64,000 nt of DNA from Bacteroidales bacterium (GTDB lineage Bacteria; Bacteroidota; Bacteroidia; Bacteroidales; VadinHA17): contig JADJLX010000001.1 of NCBI GenBank assembly GCA_016709865.1, positions 248,001 to 312,000 of the forward strand, written 5' to 3'. The stretch's first letter is position 1; each line of letters starts with the position of its first letter. The position numbers were made by a program, and so were the translations under genes. The notes under the pieces were generated by a model. It saw only the letters and a program-made list of their open reading frames with translations, ran no database searches and was not told the DNA's origin. Shown piece after piece: positions 2,893 to 56,962 of this stretch.

Positions 2893-4464
2893 TCATTTCA
2901 TTTTATACAAATAAGCCTTTGTTTTAGCCAGGTACCACTGAGTTATAAATGAATTATAATAACTTGATTGCCTGGGAGGAATAATATTTTCTGAACCTAT
3001 ATCGTCGATCATGATTTTAGTGATCTCATCATAATAAATCTGACTCTTGTGCTCTATAAACAGATCCTTAATTTTATCAGGCACAAAGTCTTTTATTTTT
3101 TCTTTAACCCGTTGAACAGATTTCTGTATTGGTAAAGTATTCAATTCATTAGGAAAGTTCAGATTATGCTTTTTAAAAACAAACTCCCTTAAAACATGAT
3201 CATATAACCTTTTATTAAGCTTAGGTTGAAATGGTATTGCTGCAAAAAAATCTTCAAGCTCACTGTCCCATAAAGGAAGGACAAAGTCATAACCAAAGAA
3301 AAGATACACTTTTGATGAATTAACATTAAATTTTGCTTTCGGCTCCTTATGATCCCAGCTTTCAAAAACCTTCCAAATCAACCTCTTGTCAAATGGTATT
3401 TTAAAGCTAATTTGATTCATGATTTCAACAGCTGTAAAGTAATCAGGCTTTGTTAATCTGAAAAACTCTTTATAGATAACTCTTGCAATCTGATCCCTGG
3501 AAGCTAATTTGTTCATTGAGGGTGTCAGGTTGCATCCCGCCAGGACATCGCCGCAAAAACCTGGCATGAAAACACTATTCTCAGGTATCAGTTTATTATC
3601 TTTCAAGTACTTCACTGCAAAATATTCCTGCATGAAAAACATACTTGAGAGTTCAGATACATACGGATAATACTTTTTGAAAACCTCATCTTCCAGGTAT
3701 CCGGCAATCAGCTGTGAATCATATACAATATTAATCCATTTAAATCCCAGTCTGCCGGCAACCTCCTTTGCATTTGCTACTTCACAGTTGTTTTCAATAC
3801 CATAAGTGTAACATAAAACGTTCTCAGGGTGAAACTCTGAACACATTGAGGCTATAAGTCTTGAATCAAATCCACCAGATAATGGGATGACAATAAATTT
3901 GTCGCTTAAAGCCTTAAAGTGATTCTCAAAAACTTTCAGAAATAGTAAATTCAATTCTTGAGATAAAACATTAAAGTCTTTATCTATCAAAGGAATAGAA
4001 GCTGAATCATAATAGAACTTTCTGGAAAATGTTCTTCCTTCATTTATTAATTCCCCTGCCTCAACCTGATAGACATTACTGATAAGTGTCAAATCATTAA
4101 CAGAATAACCGGCAGCCAGAAAGCTATCAACAGCAACTTCATTTAGTCTCCTGTCAGGTTGTTTATCTGTAAGGACATAACAATCATCACTGATTAAAAA
4201 CTCTCCGTTTATCCGTGTATAAAAAAGGGGGAAATTTCTGAACCTGTCAGTGGCTGCCCAAATGTAATCTTCAGATTTAATTACTACTGAGAAATGCCCA
4301 TTTGCGCTCCTGAGTTTTGTCTCAAATAGATCAAGTGAATCTGTTCCGGAAAAATAATCAACAAGTTCCTGATTCCTCAAATACCGGTCTCCTTCTTTTA
4401 TGAATCCGGTGATATGGATATCATTTCTGGTATGCCATTGAAATTTCGCAAGCAGAATATTCAT
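2893..4464 (-). CDS. Asparagine-synthase-like protein lacking the glutaminase cysteine
   Basis: AsnB-like ATP-dependent amide-forming protein. The N-terminal Ntn-hydrolase-like region (about 1-150) is degenerate: no Cys follows the initiator Met, so glutamine hydrolysis is unlikely. The C-terminal synthetase domain is recognisable from its PP-loop 'LSGGFDSRLIAS' (SGGxDS). I chose the ATG at 4464 ('MNILLAKFQ'); a TTG at 4473 would add three residues. Such proteins are common in exopolysaccharide or small-molecule clusters next to glycosyltransferases, where they amidate or adenylate a precursor, and a GT4 gene lies convergently beside it. The leader DNA upstream is a dispersed repeat (4474-4517). 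A dedicated role in asparagine synthesis is unlikely. Confidence 0.8.
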   Translation of the reverse strand: MNILLAKFQWHTRNDIHITGFIKEGDRYLRNQELVDYFSGTDSLDLFETKLRSANGHFSVVIKSEDYIWAATDRFRNFPLFYTRINGEFLISDDCYVLTDKQPDRRLNEVAVDSFLAAGYSVNDLTLISNVYQVEAGELINEGRTFSRKFYYDSASIPLIDKDFNVLSQELNLLFLKVFENHFKALSDKFIVIPLSGGFDSRLIASMCSEFHPENVLCYTYGIENNCEVANAKEVAGRLGFKWINIVYDSQLIAGYLEDEVFKKYYPYVSELSSMFFMQEYFAVKYLKDNKLIPENSVFMPGFCGDVLAGCNLTPSMNKLASRDQIARVIYKEFFRLTKPDYFTAVEIMNQISFKIPFDKRLIWKVFESWDHKEPKAKFNVNSSKVYLFFGYDFVLPLWDSELEDFFAAIPFQPKLNKRLYDHVLREFVFKKHNLNFPNELNTLPIQKSVQRVKEKIKDFVPDKIKDLFIEHKSQIYYDEITKIMIDDIGSENIIPPRQSSYYNSFITQWYLAKTKAYLYKMK

Positions 4465-4473
4465 ACAAATCAA

Positions 4474-4524: not shown

Positions 4525-5733
4525 CTAAAACGCCGAAACAAATCCCACATTAACCTTACCATAAGAATCCGGCACAACAACCTGAGTGTATTCCGTTACC
4601 AGTCTCACATTTCTTCTCAGAAGATATCCTGCATGAAGTGTGGCCGATGTATAATCAAGAGCACCAAGGTTAGAATCCACCCAGTTCATAAGTCCGGTAA
4701 AGTAAAATTTACTGTTATCTCCTTTCGGGGAATAAATGATTTCAGCAAATCCCCCCTGTGTAATCACATCATCATATGTGACACCTCCTCCGGGTGCATA
4801 TACATGAGAATCTGTTCTCCTCAGATACTGCATATTTACAATTAACTTATCCCCGAAGTCAAGAGCGATATCCGGACCAAACATCTGAATCTTGTTGGTA
4901 ATCCCGCCAAAAAACAATCCCGGATCAGATAGAATTTCCTTACCGGTATATCCGAATACTCCTACGCTTATACTTTTTCCGATTGATTGGTTTATCCTAA
5001 GCATATAGTTTTTATACTTGTCGTGATCAAAGAGATATCCTTCTCCTGCTTCACCAATCCCGTTCCCGTTCAGGATCTCGCCAATAACTGTTGTGCCTGT
5101 CTTGAAATCCTTTTCAATAATTGTTCCCCTGTCGTACTTAAGATCAGCCATTGAATTTCCGGGTTTGGTACCGTAGATTTTATACGGTTCAAGCGTCAGG
5201 CGCAGTTCTCCTTTAAACAGAGGATCAGAAGCCTGGAACTGTCCTAAATACAAATTGACACCGGTATTCATCAGATCGTGATACATAAGAAAGGCATCTT
5301 CAACTCCGGCAATGGCACCTCTTTCATTGAAAAGAAAGTAGAAATAATATGAAAGTTTATCAGAAAGCTCGCCTCCTGATAAAATCTTCAGAACAAAAGG
5401 GCCACTGAAATCGGCTGTTCCGGCGTCATTAAAATTATAAGAGGCAAAACCATCCATCCTGATTGCCAGCGGTAATTCTCTTAATAATGAGAGCTTGTCA
5501 TCTCCGATAGGAATAAAGTATCTTGGAGCTTCATATTCAGTCATCCTGAAACCATTTCCGGCAAACTCATCACCAAATCCTTTCAGCCTTGGCATTACAG
5601 GAGAATGACATACCTGACAACTAAGCTGGTACTTTCTTGCAAAAGCCGGAATTGCGTCACATTTCCTTGCCGGAAGCATTCCGAGCAAAACAACTGCTAT
5701 TATTGTAAAACAGTATATTGAAGATCTTTTCAT
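4525..5733 (-). CDS. Fused monoheme cytochrome c-outer membrane porin (Cyc2-like architecture)
   Basis: Predicted outer-membrane protein with one covalently bound heme at its N terminus (402 aa). Residues 1-26 are a signal peptide. The mature start 'AIPAFARKYQLSCQVCH' carries a CxxCH heme site (C39, C42, H43), followed by 'PRLKGFGDEFAGNGFRM'. The rest (about 80-402) is rich in alternating aromatic/polar strands, with Asp/Gly turns, and ends in F, as in a beta barrel. This layout and the A-x-P-x-F-A-R lead match the Cyc2 iron oxidases of neutrophilic Fe oxidisers, though similar N termini occur in barrels of unknown function. The pentaheme cytochrome gene lies 33 bp or more upstream on the same strand, which suggests one electron-transfer unit. 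Iron oxidation itself is not shown. Confidence 0.75.
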   Translation of the reverse strand: MKRSSIYCFTIIAVVLLGMLPARKCDAIPAFARKYQLSCQVCHSPVMPRLKGFGDEFAGNGFRMTEYEAPRYFIPIGDDKLSLLRELPLAIRMDGFASYNFNDAGTADFSGPFVLKILSGGELSDKLSYYFYFLFNERGAIAGVEDAFLMYHDLMNTGVNLYLGQFQASDPLFKGELRLTLEPYKIYGTKPGNSMADLKYDRGTIIEKDFKTGTTVIGEILNGNGIGEAGEGYLFDHDKYKNYMLRINQSIGKSISVGVFGYTGKEILSDPGLFFGGITNKIQMFGPDIALDFGDKLIVNMQYLRRTDSHVYAPGGGVTYDDVITQGGFAEIIYSPKGDNSKFYFTGLMNWVDSNLGALDYTSATLHAGYLLRRNVRLVTEYTQVVVPDSYGKVNVGFVSAF

Positions 5734-5766
5734 ATTGAAGGGTTTTAGGTTTCAGAAAAAGTTTTA

Positions 5767-7146
5767 TCAGGGTAATATTTTCACAGTTGTGAAATGCTCG
5801 TTAACCACCTTTATTTCAGATTCATCCGAAGGAACCTTTAGATAATCTGCTACTGGCTTTACAAGTAACTGATAATTCAGAACTGCTGTTACTTTCATCT
5901 CACCGGGAGCTACATCAAATGGCAGTTTGAATGTAAACTTTTCAACTTTGGTCTCACGCGGGCCGATTCGATAATCAACCCCCTGCTTAGCGGTGTTCCA
6001 CTGCATTATTGTCATTCTTCCTTCAGGATCAAAATAAGGCATCCTGAAAATTCTGTTCCCGTAAGGTATCCCATCGCGCTGTACTCCTTTAAAATCAGGA
6101 ATACCAAGAGGAACATTCATATCCTGGTATGCCAGGTAATCACCTGAAATAGTATATTCCTCTCCTTCGAATCCTTTCTTGTCAACGTTCAAATGGTACA
6201 CTTTCCCTTTGGCATCGGTTGCCTCAACCTGAAGCCATGCAATCCTGTCCTCAACTGACCCTGTCGGAAATTTGTGCCCGGTCTTCTGGTTAAACAATGC
6301 AACTGTAAATATCAGAGATTCACCCGGTTCAGCCTCTCTCATATCGGGCTGAATTCTTAATTCTATCGTTCCTCTCACTTTTCCCGGATCGTGCGCCCCG
6401 TGAAAAAGGTGAAGTCGTGAATCATCGTATGGCTTCGTCATAAGAGCATTAAGAAAGGGCCCTCCTTTTGGCATATGGCAATCCTGGCATCTCACTCCCT
6501 CTTTGGCATAAGGACCCTCCTTCCATTCAAGCTGGGTACTCTTGACCCAGATCCCAAACGGATTCTTTTCATTATGGCAATTGCCGCAAAACTCTGTTGT
6601 ACGGTGAAAATCGCTGGTCACAATTTTATGCGCCGGTGATTCTACCGTTGGAGTGCGTCCAGCATACTTTGTTGTTCCCGGCTTTAAAACATAACTGAAA
6701 TTAAATGGCGGCTCAGTCTGAGTGCCCTGAGTAAGATGGCAAACCTCACATGATACTGACTCATTTGCCATGCTGTTCTCCGAAGGTCGTGGAGGTGGAA
6801 ATGGTCCGGTCATAAATGCCATTGGTGAATGGCAGCCATTACATCCGTCAACCGGACCCTGCAATTCAGGTTTGGCTGCTGCATGCCTGACGGCCAGCTC
6901 AAAATATTCAATCTCATCCCAATGATGTGTGTAGGCCTGCGACATCATTGCCTGCGACCATTGTTCATAAATACCGGGGTGACATGTCCGGCATTTTTTA
7001 GCAGATTCAAAATCTTTGTATGAATACTTTGCCTTTAAATCTTCCTGTGGGGCCATTCTACTGATTGTGAATGCAGTAAGAACCAGTAAAAGTGAAGCGA
7101 CGGGAAGAAGAAAGATTATTACCGGAGTTTTCATTCTGCTGCTCAT
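5767..7146 (-). CDS. Pentaheme cytochrome c, cytochrome c554-like
   Basis: Exported multiheme cytochrome c. Numbering from a possible ATG at 7182, five CxxCH sites lie at C64, C114, C145, C199 and C232 ('CRTCH', 'CNGCH', 'CEVCH', 'CGNCH', 'CQDCH'), all in the N-terminal half as in cytochrome c554-type domains. The C-terminal ~200 residues form a probable beta-sandwich with 'GHKFPTGSVEDRIAWLQV', common in large periplasmic multiheme proteins. A hydrophobic segment near the N terminus is a signal or anchor. Starts at 7182, 7146 and 7134 are possible; 7146 gives the best signal and leaves more room to the divergent photolyase gene. The downstream gene is the heme-bearing barrel. Likely a periplasmic electron carrier. 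Confidence 0.85.
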   Translation of the reverse strand: MSSRMKTPVIIFLLPVASLLLVLTAFTISRMAPQEDLKAKYSYKDFESAKKCRTCHPGIYEQWSQAMMSQAYTHHWDEIEYFELAVRHAAAKPELQGPVDGCNGCHSPMAFMTGPFPPPRPSENSMANESVSCEVCHLTQGTQTEPPFNFSYVLKPGTTKYAGRTPTVESPAHKIVTSDFHRTTEFCGNCHNEKNPFGIWVKSTQLEWKEGPYAKEGVRCQDCHMPKGGPFLNALMTKPYDDSRLHLFHGAHDPGKVRGTIELRIQPDMREAEPGESLIFTVALFNQKTGHKFPTGSVEDRIAWLQVEATDAKGKVYHLNVDKKGFEGEEYTISGDYLAYQDMNVPLGIPDFKGVQRDGIPYGNRIFRMPYFDPEGRMTIMQWNTAKQGVDYRIGPRETKVEKFTFKLPFDVAPGEMKVTAVLNYQLLVKPVADYLKVPSDESEIKVVNEHFTTVKILP

Positions 7147-7220
7147 AAAGATTAGTATTTTTAGACTTGAAAAGATAGTCATTTTTTTGTTTAGACTGTT
7201 ATTAAATTAACAGCAAAAAT

Positions 7221-8507
7221 ATGAAGGTTAACATATTCTGGTTTCGAAGAGATCTGCGTCTTGAAGACAACACCGCTCTTGAAGAAGCTTTAGGCAGTGG
7301 ATTACCTGTCCTTCCGGTATTTATATTTGATACTAATATCACAGAAGAACTGGCATCTGATGATGCGAGAATAAGTTTCATATATGATACCCTGGCTTCA
7401 ATAAACCACGGTCTCAAAAAATGGGGAAGCTCACTAAAAGTTATTAAAGGTGACCCTCATACAGTCTGGCAAGAACTCATATCATCGTATGATATTAATT
7501 CCGTCCTGATTAACAAAGATTACGAGCCATATGCTCTTCAAAGGGATATTGCAATTGAGGTCTTGTTGCGAAAGCATAACATAGCTCTAAAAAGGTATAA
7601 AGACCAAGTAATCTTCGGTGAAAGAGATATTCTTAAAGCAGACAATACTCCGTATACCGTATTTACTCCATATAAAGCGCGATGGCTTCAGAAATTTAAT
7701 GAAATATTACCCTTTAAAAACAGTATAGGTTCAGACTTTTTTAAGAATTTCCATAAATGCAATTTTGAATTCCCGGCAATTGAAAAGATCGGTTTTTATC
7801 ATAGCTCCTTAAAAGTCAGGCCATATGATCTCACTGCATTAAACGAATATGAAAAATATCGTGATCTTCCATTTGCTGACAGGACCAGTTATTTGTCACC
7901 ACACCTTCGTTTCGGCACGGTAAGTATCCGGAACTTGGTTACACTGGCCTTAAAATCAAATCAGACATTTCTTAATGAACTTATCTGGAGGGAATTCTTC
8001 ATGCAGATCCTTTTCAATTTCCCAAAGGTTGTCACAGAAAATTTCAGATCGAAGTATGATGGAATCAACTGGATAAACAGGGAAGATGAATTTGAAAAAT
8101 GGTGCAACGGAGAAACAGGCTATCCTTTGGTTGACGCCGGGATGAGGCAGCTTAATACTACCGGATATATGCATAACAGGGTAAGAATGGTAACAGCGGG
8201 CTTCCTCTGTAAACATCTGCTGATCGACTGGCGGTGGGGCGAGGCATACTTTGCCGGAAAATTACTCGACTATGAACTCTCTTCAAACAACGGAAACTGG
8301 CAATGGGCTGCAGGTACAGGTTGCGATGCCGCACCATACTTCCGGATTTTTAGTCCTGATTCCCAGCAAAAACGGTTCGATCCGAAAATGGAATATATCC
8401 GAAAATGGGTACCGGATTTTGAAAAATCCTCATACCCAAAACCTATGATAGAACACGACTTTGCCAGAAAAAGGGCAATCGAAATATATAAATCCGGAAT
8501 AAAATAA
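7221..8507 (+). CDS. phrB: Deoxyribodipyrimidine photolyase (class I)
   Basis: Light-driven repair of cyclobutane pyrimidine dimers in DNA. The protein has the usual ~430 residues: an N-terminal alpha/beta antenna domain starting 'VNIFWFRRDLRLEDNTALEEA', and a helical FAD-binding domain with 'LRFGTVSIRNL', 'ELIWREFFMQ', 'TGYPLVDAGMRQL', 'GYMHNRVRMV' and 'NNGNWQWAAGTGCDAAPYFR', which hold the dimer-binding and Trp electron-chain residues. It is divergent from the pentaheme cytochrome gene with a very short intergenic region. The second chromophore cannot be deduced. Its presence suggests that the organism meets light at least at times. Confidence 0.95.
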   Translation: MKVNIFWFRRDLRLEDNTALEEALGSGLPVLPVFIFDTNITEELASDDARISFIYDTLASINHGLKKWGSSLKVIKGDPHTVWQELISSYDINSVLINKDYEPYALQRDIAIEVLLRKHNIALKRYKDQVIFGERDILKADNTPYTVFTPYKARWLQKFNEILPFKNSIGSDFFKNFHKCNFEFPAIEKIGFYHSSLKVRPYDLTALNEYEKYRDLPFADRTSYLSPHLRFGTVSIRNLVTLALKSNQTFLNELIWREFFMQILFNFPKVVTENFRSKYDGINWINREDEFEKWCNGETGYPLVDAGMRQLNTTGYMHNRVRMVTAGFLCKHLLIDWRWGEAYFAGKLLDYELSSNNGNWQWAAGTGCDAAPYFRIFSPDSQQKRFDPKMEYIRKWVPDFEKSSYPKPMIEHDFARKRAIEIYKSGIK

Positions 8508-30100: not shown

Positions 30101-32723
30101 ATGAAAACAAAACTCTTCCTCTCCTTACTTTTGTCTTTAAACTTTTATCTTTTGTCTTCCCAGGTTCCCAGGGAATAAACTACCAGGCCCTTGCAGGTGA
30201 TCCATCCGGTAATCCAATCAGGAATACTGAGCTTCAGGTAAAAATCAGTATTCTTTCAGACACAATTCTCCCTGTAACTGTATGGGAAGAACTGCATCCC
30301 CTGGTCAGAACAAATGCACATGGGATCTTTTCTCTTGTCGTGGGAAAAGGAACCCGGCTGCCTGCCTCTACTGTATCCAAGTTCGGTGACATCAGCTGGA
30401 AAACCTCCCAACTGTATATCAAAACCCAGGTATACTATCAAAGTGCATGGAAGACAATGGGATCAGCTAAACTGTGGAGTGTGCCATATTCACTGGTAGC
30501 AGACAATCTTAGCGGTGCAGTCGGAAAGCTATCTGTTGCAGGAACGACTGAAGCAATGGATGAAGCACTTTTTGAGGTGAAGAACAAGAATGGACAAACA
30601 GTTTTTGCAGTTTATAATGAAGGAGTCAGGGTATATGTTGATGATGGAGCAAAAAGTCCTAAAGGAGGTTTTGCCATTGGCGGATTTGATGTTGAAAAAG
30701 GGACCCTGGTAAACTACTTTATTATTAGTCCCGACAGTGCCAGGATTTACATTAACAATGCCTCATCATCAAAGGTACCAAAAGGTGGTTTTGCAATTGG
30801 TGGATTTGATAATGAAAAGGGGACAGCCACACGTGATCTTTTAACGGTAAGCGATGATAGCATAAGAATGTATATCGACAACAACACAAAAACACCAAAG
30901 GGAGGATTTGCAATTGGTGGTTTTGATAATGAAAAGGAATAAACAGACATTTCCTTGATGTATCTACTGATGCAACAGGAATAGTAAATCCTTCTCAAAA
31001 CAGGATACTCTGGTACCCGATTAAGAATGCTTTTCTGGCAGGTAAAGTACTGATTGAAAAACCTGATAGTGTTGGAGAAAACTCGATGGCAATAGGTTAC
31101 GAATCTAAAGCAAAGGGACAGTTTTCTCAGGCAATGGGCTACCAGGCAATAGCGAGGGGTAAATATTCAACATCAATCGGGTTTCAGTCTGCTGCAAATA
31201 ATGATAACTCATTCGCATTCGGACAATGGGCAATTGCTAAAAGTGCTGAGAGCTATGCCTTTGGCAGGGGAGCTATTGCAGAGGGTTTCAGAAGTTTTGC
31301 CTTTGGAAGTGCAGGGGTTGATTCCTTAGGCAAGAGGACCGGAGTTGCATATGCAAAAGGAGATTATGCATTTTCTATAGGACAGGGTTCACAAGCCCTG
31401 AATGGTGGTGCATTTGCTATTGGAATTGGTGATACAGCAAGGGGATGGGGATCAACTGCTATAGGATATAAGACTCTTGCAAATGGAAGTGTTTCAACAT
31501 CAATCGGATCTGAGACAAAGGCAATTGGTAATTCCTCAACAGCAATGGGATATAGAACAATAGCAAGTGAATGGGCTTCTATGGCAACAGGAGACAGGAC
31601 AGTTGCTTCAGGTGGAAGTTCATTTGCCGGAGGGAACTTAAGCAGGGCCATTGGTCATGCCGATTTTTCTTTCGGATATAACAACGTTGCCAGCGGTGGA
31701 CAATCAGTCGCTTTGGGTTTCAACACCCGTGCAACAAACTGGTTTTCAACCGCTACAGGCAGTCAAACTCATGCAGGTGGCAATGCTTCATTTGCGGGAG
31801 GTCAGGATTGTGAAGCAACTGGAGATGCCTCCTTCTCGTTTGGATGGAATGGACTCTCCAGTGGTGGCGGTTCAGTAACATTTGGTCATAATGCCAAGGC
31901 CACAAATTTTGCTTCTTTTGCGACAGGTAGTGAAACTTATTCTTCAGGTGCTTGCTCTCTTGCAGGAGGAAAATTTTCTCAGGCACGCGGAAACAATTCT
32001 GTTTCTTTTGGCGACAACACAAAAGCTATTGGTAATCAGAGCTTTGCTATGGGAAATAATAATGAATCCCATGGAAATTCTTCTGTTTCATTTGGGTCAT
32101 TTACCAAGTCTAAGTCATTTGGATCCATGGTTATTGGACAGTACAATGATACATCGGGTGTGCAACCTGATTATTGGCTTGGAACTGATCCTGCTTTTGT
32201 TATTGGAAACGGCACATCAAACACTAACCGTAAAAACGCTTTTACAGTTTTACAGAACAGCAATGTCGGTATAAACATGGTTAATCCACAGCAGAAGCTC
32301 GATATAGCTAGTGGAAATGGCAGGGTTGAATCGGGTTACAACTGGCTTACAAGTTCCGATATTCGGTTCAAAAAGAATATCTCAACCCTTGAATCCTCAT
32401 TGGAAAAGGTAATCAGAATGAGGGGTGTCCGGTACGATATTAGTGCTGATGAAGTTTCTGATGATCTTCCAGGGGAAAATATCGGATTTATTGCCCAGGA
32501 ACTTGAAACTGTTGTTCCGGAAGTTGTCGTAACCGGATCTGATGGATACAAATCCGTCGCTTATGATAAAATAACTGCCGTGCTGACTGAAGCCATTAAA
32601 GAACAGCAGAAACAGATCGAGAACTACAGGAAGGAAAACCTAGATCTAAAATCAGAACTTGATGAGCTGAAAACACTTGTTAATAATCTTCTGGTGAAGC
32701 AGAATCTTAAGAGCGACAATTAG
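30101..32723 (+). CDS. YadA-head/S74-chaperone surface protein (two frameshifts as sequenced)
   Basis: Large exported fibre-like protein, about 870 residues if two frame breaks are mended. Order: signal peptide; 'GINYQALAGDPSGNP', a Bacteroidota domain of many surface proteins; three ~40-residue units each opening 'PKGGFAIGGFD' (30658, 30778, 30895); a long YadA/Hia-type head of ~14-residue units such as 'AIGYESKAKGQFSQAMGYQA' (31086-32150); and a C-terminal intramolecular chaperone of the endosialidase/S74 type, 'SSDIRFKKNISTL', 'GFIAQELETVVPEVV', with coiled-coil tail. S74 domains trimerise fibres and then cut themselves off before the Ser of S-D-x-R-x-K. Breaks are within 30105-30165 and at about 30935 ('GAAAAGGAATAA'), each one base short. 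No outer-membrane anchor domain is seen. Confidence 0.85.
30658..30945 (+). repeat. Three in-gene repeats of 117-120 bp
   Basis: Direct repeats starting at 30658, 30778 and 30895 encode PKGGFAIGGFDxEKG followed by a variable strand and (in the first two) 'DSxRxYI-N'. Spacing 120 and 117 bp keeps the frame. They lie between the N-terminal domain and the YadA-like head. Confidence 0.85.
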
Positions 32724-48502: not shown

Positions 48503-48748
48503 TTATTTCACAGAATCGGCCAACAGGATTATCTTGTTGGCTTTAACTTCAATCACACCACTGCTGATTTCAAAAACCTTTTCTTCACCTTCCGTTTCAA
48601 CCATTGTTACTATGCCCTGCTCAAGGGTGGAAATAATCGGTGCGTGATCTTTCAGAACCTGAAAGGATCCCTTCTTACCGGGGACTCTTACAGATTTAAT
48701 ATCGCCTTCGTATACTTTTTTATCAGGTGTGATAATCTCTATTTTCAT
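48503..48748 (-). CDS. atpC: ATP synthase F1 epsilon subunit
   Basis: 81 aa, only the N-terminal beta-sandwich ('MKIEIITPDKKVYEGDIKSV', 'GSFQVLKDHAPIISTLEQGI', 'GVIEVKANKIILLADSVK'); the C-terminal helical hairpin that can brake the enzyme in E. coli is absent, usual for Bacteroidota. 12 bp after atpD. Confidence 0.93.
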   Translation of the reverse strand: MKIEIITPDKKVYEGDIKSVRVPGKKGSFQVLKDHAPIISTLEQGIVTMVETEGEEKVFEISSGVIEVKANKIILLADSVK

Positions 48749-48760
48749 CAGAAAATATTT

Positions 48761-50275
<1,515 letters not shown>

Positions 50276-51983: not shown

Positions 51984-52868
51984 TTATCCTCTCAGAGCCT
52001 CAGCACCACTTACAACTTCAAGTATCTGGTTTGTTATTGTCGCCTGTCTTGCTTTGTTGTACTGCAGGGTAAGATCCCTAATCATGCTTGTTGCATTGTC
52101 AGTTGCCTTGTGCATTGATGTCATTCTGGCTCCATGTTCCGCTACAAAAGAATTAAGTATCGCTTTATAGAACTGAATTTTAAGGGATTTCGGAATAAGT
52201 TCCTTAACTATTTCCTCCTGGGTTGGTTCATATATGTAATCTGTCGGAGCCAGAGCTGTTTTTCCTTCCGTAATTGTACTTACCGGGAGAAATTGTTCAT
52301 TTGTAAGGATCTGAACTGCTGCATTTTTAAACTGGTTATACACGAGTTCTATTCTGTCAAATTCCTTCAGGGTAAAACTCTTCATTACCTGTTCTGCAAC
52401 ACCGGCAACGTTATCAAATGTAAGATCGTGAAGTAGATTATTCTGATCCTGAAGCATGTTAATTTTAAGCTTTCTGAAGAAGTCGTATCCCTTCTTACCG
52501 ATTGGCAGAAGCCATACATTATTGTTCTTGTATTGTTCTGAGTATTTTTCGGTAATGATTCTTCGTGTCTCTTTTATAACATTCGTATTAAATGCTCCGC
52601 AAAGACCGCGGTTTGAGGTGATTACAACAATTAGCACTTTTTCAGGACTGGATTGTCTCCCATATACGTTTTCAATCTCAGAGTCTGCCAGACTCTGATT
52701 GAGTCCTACAAGAATCTCGTATAATTTGTTTGCATATGGACGAAGCCGTACTATTTTATCCTGTGCTTTTCTCAACTTTGCAGCAGAAACCATTTTCATG
52801 GCTGAAGTAATCTGTCGCGTTGATTTGACAGAGGTTATCCTAATCCTTATTGCTTTTAAATTCGCCAT
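51984..52868 (-). CDS. atpG: ATP synthase F1 gamma subunit
   Basis: Central shaft of F1, 294 aa. N helix 'MANLKAIRIRITSVKSTRQITSAMKMVSAAKL' in the usual form (shown partly) and C helix ending 'YNKARQATITNQILEVVSGAEAL', with 'SNRGLCGAFN' between. 29 bp after atpA. Confidence 0.97.
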   Translation of the reverse strand: MANLKAIRIRITSVKSTRQITSAMKMVSAAKLRKAQDKIVRLRPYANKLYEILVGLNQSLADSEIENVYGRQSSPEKVLIVVITSNRGLCGAFNTNVIKETRRIITEKYSEQYKNNNVWLLPIGKKGYDFFRKLKINMLQDQNNLLHDLTFDNVAGVAEQVMKSFTLKEFDRIELVYNQFKNAAVQILTNEQFLPVSTITEGKTALAPTDYIYEPTQEEIVKELIPKSLKIQFYKAILNSFVAEHGARMTSMHKATDNATSMIRDLTLQYNKARQATITNQILEVVSGAEALRG

Positions 52869-52897
52869 TTAAAGTTCATTTATTCAACCCCGAAGTC

Positions 52898-54481
52898 TTA
52901 ATCTGCCTGATATTTCATTGCTAATTCTGTTGCAACTTTCTCGAGGGTTTTTGTGATATCATTGTTAAGGATCCCATCCCGAAGACTGTCAAGCACATCG
53001 CGGTGTTTAAGTTCCATAAACTCGAGAAATTCACTTTCAAAGTTTTTAACCTTACTTGTGGGAACATTCTTTAACAAACCCATTGTTCCGCAATAAATTA
53101 TTGCAACCTGATTTTCAACAGTCATTGGTGCATACTGTGGCTGTTTAAGAATCTGAACGTTTTTGGCACCTTTATTAAGAATAGCCAGTGTTGTTGCATC
53201 CAGATCGGAACCAAATTTGGAAAATGCTTCAAGTTCACGATACTGGGCCTGGTCAACCTTAAGTGTACCGGCTATTTTCTTCATCGATTTGATCTGAGCG
53301 TTACCACCCACCCTCGACACTGAAATACCAACGTTGATAGCCGGTCTTACACCAGAGTTAAAGAGGCTTGATTCGAGAAAGATCTGACCGTCTGTTATAG
53401 AAATAACATTGGTAGGAATATAGGCAGAAACGTCACCGGCCTGTGTTTCAATTATAGGAAGTGCTGTTAATGATCCTCCTCCTTTAACCATATGTCTTAT
53501 AGATTCAGGAAGGTCATTCATTTTTTGTGCAACCTCGTCTGATTCAATGATTTTAGCAGCTCTTTCCAGAAGTCTGGAGTGCAAATAGAATACGTCGCCG
53601 GGATATGCTTCACGTCCAGGTGGACGACGAAGCAGGAGGGAGACCTCCCTGTATGAAACAGCCTGTTTTGAAAGGTCATCGTAAATGATCAAAGCATCGC
53701 GGCCTGTATCGCGGAAAAATTCACCAATAGCGGCTCCTGCGAAAGGTGCATAGAACTGCGATGCGGCAGGATCAGAAGCCGTAGCAAGTACAATAACAGT
53801 ATACTGAAGAGCTCCGTGTTCCTCTAGAGTTGCAGCAATATTTGCAACTGTTGAACCCTTCTGACCGATAGCTACATAAATGCAATATACAGGCTTTCCT
53901 TTTTCGAAATTACTTTTCTGATTGATAATAGTATCTATGGCAATAGCTGTCTTTCCGGTCTGCCTGTCGCCGATAATCAATTCACGCTGTCCGCGTCCGA
54001 TCGGTATCATTGCATCGATTGCCTTGATTCCGGTCTGCAGAGGCTGCCTGACCGGCTGACGGAAAATAACCCCGGGGGCTTTTCTTTCAAACGGAAGATT
54101 ATATAATTCTCCGGTTATCGGACCTTTTCCATCGAGAGGCTGGCCTGTAGGACTGATAACCCTTCCAAGCAATCCTTCACCTACACCCAGTGATGCAATT
54201 CTACCCGTTCTTTTTACTATATCGCCTTCATTTACCTCTTCGGTCGGTCCGAGCAATACAGCTCCTATATTGTCTTCCTCCAGGTTCAGAACAATAGCTT
54301 CAATTCCATTTTCAAATACAATCAGCTCATTCGACTGAACATTTGAAAGTCCGTAAATACGGGCTATCCCGTCACCAACCTGAAGCACGGTTCCTACTTC
54401 CTCAAGTTCAACACCGGTCTGTATCCCTTCGAGTTGCTGTTTGAGAATCTTTGAAACTTCTGCTGGTTTAATATTTGCCAT
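52898..54481 (-). CDS. atpA: ATP synthase F1 alpha subunit
   Basis: Non-catalytic nucleotide-binding subunit, 527 aa. P-loop 'GDRQTGKT' (171-178), '[17 protein letters not shown]', '[17 protein letters not shown]', '[27 protein letters not shown]' (in part) and '[16 protein letters not shown]' are standard. Lies between atpH and atpG. Confidence 0.98.
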
Positions 54482-54519
54482 ATTATGTTATCTTAAAATA
54501 CTTTAATACTACTATGCAA

Positions 54520-55068
54520 TTATGAGACTACAAGGCCTCCTAATAACTCTTTTCTAATTTTTCTTAATTTATTCTGAATGCTGGCATCAATGTAATTATC
54601 ATCGACACGCAGAATGAATCCCCCAACTATAGAAGGATCCACGATTTCCTGAAGATCTACCTTTGTGGAAAATATACTGGAAATAAGATCGGTAATTTGT
54701 TTTTTTACCTTGGGATCCACCTTAACTGCTGTTGTAAGAACTGATTCAGTTATTCCCCTGTATTTCCTGGTCTCATTAATAAATTCTCTGGCAATTGCAG
54801 GCAGGTTACTCTCTCTGCCGTTTTTAACTACAAGATCGATAAGAGAAAGGGTAACTTTCTCGACATTGCCTTCCAGCATCTTGTGTAAAATTGCTGTCTT
54901 TTTAGAAGGTATAATTATTGGACTATGCAGAAATTCCTTTGTTTCGGGTAATTTGCATACCTCAGCAATAAAGATCATATCCTCATTTACTTTATCGATG
55001 ATCTTTTTTTCGAGTGCTGACTGAAACAGAGCCCTTGAATACCTTACAGATATTTTGCCGTCGTTCAT
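54520..55068 (-). CDS. atpH: ATP synthase delta subunit
   Basis: Stator protein joining F1 alpha to subunit b, 182 aa. N-terminal helical domain 'ISVRYSRALFQSALEKKI', C-terminal 'VDPSIVGGFILRVDDNYIDASIQNKLRKI' (partial) with the family's G-G-x-x-x-x-x-x-x-x-x-D-x-S motif. Overlap-free, 15 bp after atpF. Confidence 0.95.
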   Translation of the reverse strand: MNDGKISVRYSRALFQSALEKKIIDKVNEDMIFIAEVCKLPETKEFLHSPIIIPSKKTAILHKMLEGNVEKVTLSLIDLVVKNGRESNLPAIAREFINETRKYRGITESVLTTAVKVDPKVKKQITDLISSIFSTKVDLQEIVDPSIVGGFILRVDDNYIDASIQNKLRKIRKELLGGLVVS

Positions 55069-55083
55069 TACAGATTATTCTTC

Positions 55084-55599
55084 CTAGTTCTTATTGAAAT
55101 CAATCTCTTTCAGGTAATTATCAATCAGCTTTTCCTGTTCACCTGTTTGCTTCAGTTTTTCGCCAAGCAGGCGCGATGCGATCTCCACGGAGATACTGGC
55201 AACCTGTTCGTGAATTTCAGAGAGTGCTTTGCGCTTTTCGCTTTCGATTCCTGCTCTTGCTTTTTCAACAAGTTTTTCAGCCTCTTCAGATGCCTTTCCT
55301 TTAGCTTCAGAGATTAGTTTATCGCGCACTTCCCTTGCTTCCTTCAGAATAACTTCGCGTTCTTCTCTAGCTTTACGAAGGATAGCTTCATTGTCGCTTT
55401 TCAGCTTGAGCATTTCTTCTCTTGCTTTTTCAGCTGACTCGAGTGAGCTTCTGATCATTTCATCCCTGGCCTTAACAGCAGCAAGAATAGGTTTCCAGGC
55501 AAATTTTGTAAGAATCAGAAAGAAGAGCCCGAAAATCAGTGCAGACCAGACAAGCGTCCCGATTGCAGGAGTGGTCAGACTGTTTGCTAATAATATCAT
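55084..55599 (-). CDS. atpF: ATP synthase F0 b subunit
   Basis: Peripheral stalk protein, 171 aa: one N-terminal membrane helix ('LVWSALIFGLFFLILTKFAW'), then a long charged helix rich in Ala, Glu, Lys and Arg ('REERE', 'EAREVRDKLISEA'). Lies between atpE and atpH. Confidence 0.94.
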   Translation of the reverse strand: MILLANSLTTPAIGTLVWSALIFGLFFLILTKFAWKPILAAVKARDEMIRSSLESAEKAREEMLKLKSDNEAILRKAREEREVILKEAREVRDKLISEAKGKASEEAEKLVEKARAGIESEKRKALSEIHEQVASISVEIASRLLGEKLKQTGEQEKLIDNYLKEIDFNKN

Positions 55600-55673
55600 A
55601 ATATTGTTTTTTTACAATTAGTTAAAAATGAAGCACTGCAACCAACCGTTGCAGGCTTCAGTTTCTTAAGTTA

Positions 55674-55886
<213 letters not shown>

Positions 55887-55903
55887 TTAGTTAAACAAAA
55901 ATT

Positions 55904-56962
55904 CTAATGATGTTCCTGAACTGCCATACTGATGAACAGAGCAGAAAGTAAAGTAAAAATATATGCCTGAAGGAATGCCACCAGAAGTTCGAGGCAATCC
56001 ATAAAAATCACAAAGAATATTGAAACAGGAGCTAATGCAAGTGAGTCGAAGATAAAAATCAGACAAATAAGACTAAGCACAATAATATGTCCTGCCGTGA
56101 TATTTGCAAAGAGACGAATCATCAGAGCAAAGGGTTTTGAGAACAGACCGATAATTTCAACTGGTATCATTACCGGCAGAAGCCAGAATGGAACACCTGG
56201 TGTGGCAAAGACATGTTTCCAGTATGCTTTATTTCCGCTGAACTGTGTCACAAGGAATGTGCAGGTAGCGAGAAGAAAGGTAATTGCTATGTTCCCTGTA
56301 ACGTTTGCTCCAAATGGCGGCGGAAATGGAATAAGTCCCATCAGGTTATTTATAAGTATGAAAAAGAATACCGTAAGAAGGTAAGGCATGTATTTTTCAT
56401 ATTTATGACCGAGATTGGGAATTGCCACATCGTCGCGGACAAATAAAACAACAGGCTCAAGAAAACTCTGAATCCCTTTAGGGTGGCTAATGCCTGTTTT
56501 TTTGTAGGAGCGTGCAAGAGAAAGAAACAGGAAGAGTCCTATTAATGCGGCCGATAACATTCCAATAACTGTTTTTGTCATAGAAAGGTCAAGCGGAAGA
56601 TTTTCTTCGTCAATAACGCCTGCCTCGCTTATGTTGACAATTTTTCCTTTAAGATCGCCTTCTTCTTCAATTTTGAATCCCTTGTATTCGTGTCCATGTG
56701 CAAGATGCTTTGAGGAAAAAACATTCACCCCTTTTTCTTTACTGTAGACGATTACCGGCAGATAAATGGCTACACTGCTGCCATCTTTCTTTGTCCAGAG
56801 ATGCCACTCGTGCGAATCAGCAATGTGTTCAAGTATATACGTGCTGGCTTTGAATTTTTCTTTACCTTCCTCTTTTTCCTCACCATGTTGCCCAAAGGCA
56901 GGTCCAGTGGTAACGGCAAAGAGAAGAAACAGGAAAAAGCCGATCAATTTATTTGTTTTCAA
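55904..56962 (-). CDS. atpB: ATP synthase F0 a subunit with secreted N-terminal extension
   Basis: Proton channel subunit, 352 aa. Residues 1-24 resemble a signal peptide and 25-130 a periplasmic His/Glu-rich stretch ('GQHGEEKEEGKEKF'), a layout common in Bacteroidota; the core from about 130 has five helices with the essential Arg283 in 'MIRLFANITAGHIIVL' and 'FLQAYIFTLLSALFIS' at the end. atpE starts 29 bp later. Confidence 0.95.
   Translation of the reverse strand: MKTNKLIGFFLFLLFAVTTGPAFGQHGEEKEEGKEKFKASTYILEHIADSHEWHLWTKKDGSSVAIYLPVIVYSKEKGVNVFSSKHLAHGHEYKGFKIEEEGDLKGKIVNISEAGVIDEENLPLDLSMTKTVIGMLSAALIGLFLFLSLARSYKKTGISHPKGIQSFLEPVVLFVRDDVAIPNLGHKYEKYMPYLLTVFFFILINNLMGLIPFPPPFGANVTGNIAITFLLATCTFLVTQFSGNKAYWKHVFATPGVPFWLLPVMIPVEIIGLFSKPFALMIRLFANITAGHIIVLSLICLIFIFDSLALAPVSIFFVIFMDCLELLVAFLQAYIFTLLSALFISMAVQEHH

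Follow-up and report, generated by a model that had tools for sequence, protein, structure and literature searches.

Cyc2 proteins are defined by an AXPXFAR[Q/K][T/Y] motif, one CXXCH heme-binding site, a PXL motif and a porin of about 16 strands (PMC8406198; papers are represented by excerpts throughout), and are known from iron oxidisers as Cyc2 of Acidithiobacillus and Mariprofundus PV-1 and Cyt572 of Leptospirillum. Pentaheme cytochromes of the ExtKL/c552 family, among them Geobacter ExtKL, Thermochromatium c552 and PHC of cable bacteria, carry five hemes and a beta-rich C-terminal domain. In the porin-cytochrome complexes MtrAB, PioAB and OmbB-OmaB-OmcB, a barrel and a multiheme cytochrome are encoded side by side. 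Here we describe two adjacent genes in a stretch of 64,000 nucleotides (the window; positions 248,001 to 312,000 of contig JADJLX010000001.1, assembly GCA_016709865.1) from a Bacteroidales bacterium, one encoding a Cyc2-type barrel with its own heme site and the other an ExtKL-type pentaheme cytochrome. Because a heme fused to an outer-membrane barrel and a five-heme relay are locked together, we consider an electron conduit the best reading, and we give a probability of roughly 55% to the two genes working as a single unit, a minimal outer-membrane conduit with six hemes.

Cyc2 itself has been reported from related hosts. Homologues occur in Bacteroidetes and Ignavibacteriaceae bins, where they are treated rather broadly as genes of extracellular electron transfer (PMC6344600), and Bacteroidota are among 17 phyla with Cyc2 in another survey (PMC9769843). 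Ignavibacteriales and Zixibacteria are among the carriers of iron-oxidation genes, dominantly Cyc2, with cluster 3 Cyc2 dominant outside site D1 (PMC8478452). The last two studies read such genes as iron-oxidation markers; possible service of Cyc2 in other extracellular electron transfer was left open elsewhere (PMC5566968). These published Bacteroidota, Ignavibacteria and Zixibacteria sets probably include the family described here, and the excerpts of PMC6344600, PMC9769843 and PMC8478452 describe no partner gene or linkage. We found no description of the barrel-pentaheme pair in the open-licence literature, although it may be in print elsewhere. In that literature, excerpts naming Cyc2 together with a pentaheme deal with other subjects (alternative complex III, a survey of different clusters, a yeast protein that shares the name), and none was found that names Cyc2 with ExtKL. 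So far as searched, what is new is a widespread Cyc2 clade with a near-obligate ExtKL-type partner, undescribed as a pair.

The barrel protein and its pentaheme partner

The genes lie 33 bases apart, both on the minus strand, with the pentaheme gene first in reading direction:

4525..5733, minus: Cyc2-type fused monoheme cytochrome-porin, 402 amino acids, assigned by motif, profiles, tree and predicted fold
5629..5655, minus: AIPAFARKY (residues 27-35), close to the probable mature N terminus and fitting the published motif AXPXFAR[Q/K][T/Y] exactly
5605..5619, minus: CQVCH, residues 39-43, the sole heme-binding site of the barrel protein by sequence
4528..5472, minus: predicted 16-stranded porin domain, residues 88-402 (AlphaFold2 model, Foldseek, VIA-align)
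5767..7182, minus: pentaheme c-type cytochrome of the ExtKL/c552 family, 471 amino acids in the longest frame, assigned by profiles, fold and five CxxCH sites
6979..6993, minus: heme site 1, CRTCH, residue 64 (CxxxCH in 25 of 67 relatives)
6829..6843, minus: heme site 2, CNGCH, residue 114, by sequence
6736..6750, minus: heme site 3, CEVCH, residue 145, by sequence
6574..6588, minus: heme site 4, CGNCH, residue 199, by sequence
6475..6489, minus: heme site 5, CQDCH, residue 232, by sequence

An earlier note on this DNA had proposed a Cyc2-like fused heme barrel, with one CxxCH behind an N-terminal leader, AIPAFARKY before it and PRLKGFGDEF after it, and the translation bears this out: a hydrophobic leader is followed by AIPAFARKY-QLS-CQVCH-SPVM-PRL, and PRLKGFGDEF stands behind the CxxCH. 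As in the Cyc2 proteins of iron oxidisers, the motif precedes a single CXXCH, PXL follows four residues behind, and the length of 402 amino acids behind a signal sequence (judged by eye) exceeds the Cyc2 minimum of 365. In a whole-protein search, IPAF-x-RKY was present in all 34 aligned proteins and the exact AIPAFARKY in 29, the window included. The genome loci were retrieved with the patterns IPAFARKY and SCQVCH[SA]P, and their IPAFARKY is hence no independent evidence for the motif. Among 80 barrel rows (79 loci and the window) the full Cyc2 pattern occurs in 34; PXL is spaced by three residues instead of four in 39, and the leading A is absent in 12.

The AlphaFold2 model has 16 strands between residues 89 and 401 at moderate confidence (mean predicted local distance difference test, pLDDT, 75.4), above the minimum of about 14 that the earlier note had set, and both Foldseek and VIA-align return porin folds, including the phosphate porins OprP and OprO. 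Self-built profiles of other Cyc2-like proteins recovered the barrel (expectation value E = 2.6e-7 and 3.5e-26), and hhalign relates it to other Cyc2-like proteins at 97.4 percent (E = 9.5e-12); the reference rows were defined by motif and similarity, not by biochemical test, and one comes from an A. ferrooxidans plasmid. Public collections gave no informative match by sequence (Pfam, NCBIfam, PHROGs or PDB): the window protein hits no Pfam family at E up to 10, its NCBIfam matches up to E 10 include no ExtI-named model, and none of 44 aligned family members hits a Pfam model of an MtrB/PioB-type porin at E up to 0.1.

An unrooted maximum likelihood tree was built from 68 rows, comprising 33 of the 80 loci hand-picked for diversity, the window, reference rows (14 of 15; L083 was dropped, its annotated start leaving out the heme site) and rows of the phylum sample described below. 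All 34 pair-type rows fall on one side of a branch (100/99) and group (100/98) with 13 further Cyc2-like rows from the phylum sample, apart from 14 Proteobacteria-type rows and seven more phylum-sample rows, four of which have ATPVFARQT. Long branches meet in this tree, and its finer joins are unsafe. Judged from its sequence, the barrel belongs to the Cyc2-type fused cytochrome-porins, forms part of a separate clade and does not sit among unrelated CxxCH-bearing porins, a placement that the earlier note had named as a test. We rejected a chance motif in view of its recurrence among relatives and the profile matches, and a barrel with an unrelated CxxCH in view of the profile matches and the tree. 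Another Cyc2-like clade, of the AIPAFARKYQTSC.TCH type and without a pentaheme, is seen in L116-L119, L126 and L127 (genomes G190, G020, G103, G126, G222 and G170). Genomes such as G103, G186, G230 and G273 hold five Cyc2-like matches each, and no more than one was retrieved from any of these genomes. Two longer proteins, of 527 and 529 residues (L026 3157-4740 and L027 4179-5768), match a broad Cyc2-like profile weakly (E = 1e-3 and 1.6e-4).

For the neighbour, the earlier note had counted five CxxCH sites, as listed above, without naming a family; it had placed the pair at 4525..7146, and both genes are there, but the longest pentaheme frame reaches 7182 and 7146 is a later ATG, as is 7134. 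Five heme sites and fold agree with the ExtKL/c552 family. The ExtKL model of NCBIfam is matched by all 42 pentahemes tested, yet the window's protein scores 51.5 bits against the equivalog cut-off of 250, so by profile it is a relative of ExtKL and not ExtKL itself. Its model matches Thermochromatium c552 (5ze8) from residue 56 to 467; VIA-align rows ranked below 5ze8 span the C-terminal beta domain only and were not taken as family evidence. Identity as NrfA or NapC was rejected, their matches being partial and low-scoring. The heme-site counts are based on 67 rows, frames under 380 amino acids having been dropped.

The arrangement departs from each of the described systems. The barrel differs from Cyc2 of iron oxidisers in its clade and in its partner, which is an ExtKL-type pentaheme and not a monoheme cytochrome. 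The pentaheme differs from Geobacter ExtKL in its score, in the absence of an ext cluster and in a partner porin with its own heme. The analogy with MtrAB, PioAB and OmbB-OmaB-OmcB is one of working principle, since here a heme is fused to the barrel, the hemes total six, the barrel is smaller (16 strands) and such a Pfam match is missing.

Linkage of the two genes across genomes

Scanning genomes for IPAFARKY and SCQVCH[SA]P yielded at least 538 confirmed relatives, possibly including other Cyc2-like barrels, and the locus counts rest on the best 80 of these. The pentaheme gene lies directly upstream of the barrel gene in 76 of the 80, as the earlier note's proposed test of side-by-side recurrence had asked; in the other four (L040, L049, L057 and L061) the barrel lies no more than 201 bases from a contig end. 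All 74 sources with both frames called, including the window, have them on the same strand at a median gap of 21 bases (range -41 to 314). No third gene is conserved: the next gene cluster appears in only 9 of 81 sources, and a longer conserved operon was accordingly rejected. The nearest barrels come from bins of Bacteroidales and Bacteroidetes, and the pair is found in Bacteroidota and, outside that phylum, in Ignavibacteria, Aminicenantes and Zixibacteria.

Since these loci were found through the barrel, genomes were also sampled independently. In the order of one relative (G001; 197 genomes, G001 included), the barrel was present at E below 1e-100 in ten, and the same ten carry the pentaheme (E no higher than 5e-45), next to the barrel each time (Fisher, 5e-17). 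With 10 of 197 genomes and all 80 kept loci being of this type, the pair can hardly be called unusual in Bacteroidota, as the note had put it. The other 187 genomes show weak barrel matches in G315, G368 and G479 (E = 6e-15 or weaker) and weak pentaheme matches in G332, G459 and G482 (E = 3e-6 or weaker), always in different genomes. A phylum sample of 296 genomes contained 79 with a Cyc2-like match, 21 of the pair type and 58 of other types. The pentaheme is present in 20 of the 21 pair-type genomes versus none of the 58, and adjoins the barrel in 19 of 20 pair-type loci inspected, the exception being L099 of G157; it is absent from all 20 fetched loci of the other Cyc2-like kind. A third sample covered 119 genomes from the phylum of G008, a Saccharicenans relative, with Cyc2-like matches in 36. 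All five pair-type genomes have the two genes side by side. Among the other 31, one (G499) has a strong pentaheme with no adjoining barrel, G596 a divergent one (E = 3e-54), 13 have weak matches (E no better than 1e-16) and 16 have no match. Next to the G499 and G596 pentahemes, none of the stop-terminated frames is Cyc2-like. The linkage is thus near-strict but not absolute.

The identities of the two proteins correlate across 65 sources (r = 0.87, pentahemes of 430 amino acids or less left out), but a shared host tree gives any two genes such a correlation, and we therefore count it as co-inheritance only. Some individual loci deserve mention. In G374, one of the ten pair genomes of the order sample, both genes on contig C20 (L136 and L140) are broken, as if decaying together; the barrel match of L094 (genome G079) has one internal TGA, reflecting decay, error or recoding; and the pentaheme match is in two pieces in L012 (4084-5351) and L016 (7044-8353). 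In G499, an ExtKL-like pentaheme (L149 6072-7484) and a Cyc2-like barrel (L150 3667-5022) are on different contigs. L087, with a gene annotated in two pieces, and duplicate plasmid matches were left out, and L070, outside the gene clustering, was recognised as a barrel by profile.

Proposed electron flow and rival explanations

In the proposed conduit, heme would be attached at all six sites and the two proteins would make contact. The short N-terminal heme domain of the barrel would plug or line the pore, and through its heme electrons would pass to or from something extracellular. The pentaheme, possibly membrane-anchored in Bacteroidales, would act as a periplasmic relay between the barrel heme and the quinone pool, which in many hosts it perhaps reaches through a quinol dehydrogenase of the NapC/NrfH type. 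The corresponding family PF03264 is present in all ten pair genomes of the order sample versus 100 of the 187 others (Fisher p = 0.003), in each of the ten besides the pentaheme; in a second set all 40 genomes match it at E = 0.001 and 39 of them exceed the cut-off, but in several the match is weak and in part due to the pentaheme itself. Electron exchange across the outer membrane, which the earlier note had suggested, seems likely; its "one-way" path does not carry over, as no result here fixes the direction.

We lean weakly towards outward flow, with Fe(III), humics or some other acceptor beyond the cell receiving the electrons, because members of the partner family are known to act in reductive pathways and many hosts show no heme-copper oxidase. 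Among 40 pair-bearing genomes (every second locus), PF00115, which also includes nitric oxide reductases (counts not split), is matched in 19, about a dozen of them strongly (E below 1e-140), and in 21 there is no match, a further difference from Cyc2 of iron oxidisers. A bd oxidase is found in 29 of the 40, and neither type in 10, including all six genomes from L062, L064, L066, L072, L074 and L076 (Acidobacteria, Saccharicenans and Aminicenantes among the names). A bd oxidase draws its electrons from quinol and therefore cannot serve a route from barrel to oxidase. It is a tentative idea, one we would sooner doubt than assert, that this branch of Cyc2 runs in reverse, the heme barrel exporting electrons with a low-potential ExtKL-type pentaheme in heterotrophs of several phyla.

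Several observations pull the other way or weaken the conduit itself. Fe(II) is oxidised by each of the three Cyc2 proteins that have been tested biochemically (PMC8406198), and a heading in PMC5877670 calls the porin ExtI unimportant for respiration of fumarate and Fe(III). The heme domain is not really modelled, with pLDDT below 50 at residues 21-43 and 68-87 of the barrel, and the model of the pentaheme has a mean of 73.8, most of its heme half lying at 50-80. Across 79 Cyc2-like rows, H43 of the CxxCH is the only histidine or methionine conserved at 75%, and so no sixth heme ligand can be assigned. G157 has the barrel without the pentaheme and G499 a strong pentaheme apart from any barrel, and absences from metagenome bins are soft, as they may reflect incompleteness and genome completeness is not given. 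Within the pair family, H367 is conserved to 89% and two methionine columns to 82-84%. In cytochrome f the N-terminal amine serves as heme ligand; with the motif near the likely mature N terminus, a similar ligand is conceivable for the barrel, as speculation by analogy.

The rival that we take most seriously, although we think it rather unlikely, is electron uptake: the barrel would oxidise Fe(II) outside the cell, or else a humic, mineral or partner cell in reduced form, and the pentaheme would carry electrons inward to a periplasmic or quinone-linked acceptor. Its Cyc2 homology, the tested Fe(II) oxidases (208 mV for Cyc2 of PV-1; PMC8406198), the 19 genomes with PF00115 and the NapC/NrfH enrichment all fit, but the 21 genomes without PF00115 do not, and they leave the Fe(II) oxidation raised by the earlier note without general support as such. 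Nor is the oxidase enriched with the pair in the order sample (7 of 10 versus 82 of 187, p = 0.19); a conserved monoheme neighbour is missing, unlike at several other Cyc2-like loci, and the clade is separate from the Proteobacteria rows.

Less probable still would be reduction of soluble oxyanions, modelled on the proposal for ExtI and ExtKL of Geobacter. The barrel would then be a selective channel, its heme lying close to the opening, and the pentaheme would reduce an ion such as selenite or tellurite. Selenite and tellurite reduction is impaired when the porin ExtI is lost (PMC5877670), the partner belongs to the ExtKL family and OprP and OprO are among the fold matches of the barrel. Against this, the score is far below the ExtKL equivalog cut-off, the barrel's NCBIfam matches name no ExtI, ext-type neighbours are absent, and a plain channel leaves the barrel-bound heme unexplained. 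A role outside energy metabolism, with the barrel heme sensing or quenching redox stress or the pair handling heme or iron, seems very improbable to us: the lack of an invariant sixth ligand would suit a ligand-binding heme, but sensing hardly explains a tightly linked five-heme relay whose relatives belong to electron-transfer clusters.

If the export reading is true, the pair, with one barrel heme and five relay hemes, would rank among the smallest outer-membrane conduits built from two genes, and it would no longer be safe to take Cyc2 as a marker gene for iron oxidation. That marker use may fail for a clade locked to an ExtKL-type pentaheme, about half of whose hosts have no heme-copper oxidase match. 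One survey tool requires by default at least 15 hemes per gene cluster (PMC11475568), and a six-heme pair would therefore be passed over. The two-gene, six-heme system seems simple enough for expression and measurement.

Surroundings in the window

The flanking genes are not related to the pair: a photolyase (7221-8507, plus strand) and an asparagine-synthase-like protein (2893-4473, minus strand). The called genes of the 64 kb window hold no further CxxCH, and no ext gene cluster surrounds the pentaheme, only the barrel and pentaheme genes being conserved across the 81 sources. Viral or plasmid origin was rejected, with no relative on a viral contig and a single weak plasmid match that is itself Cyc2-like. 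Elsewhere, the ATP synthase genes are apparently split into two blocks (48503-50269 and 51984-56962, by eye), beta and epsilon standing apart from gamma, alpha, delta, b and a, with a polyprenyl-synthetase-like gene and an opposite-strand gene between them (also by eye). At 31086-32723, a protein has repeats that by eye resemble trimeric autotransporter heads.
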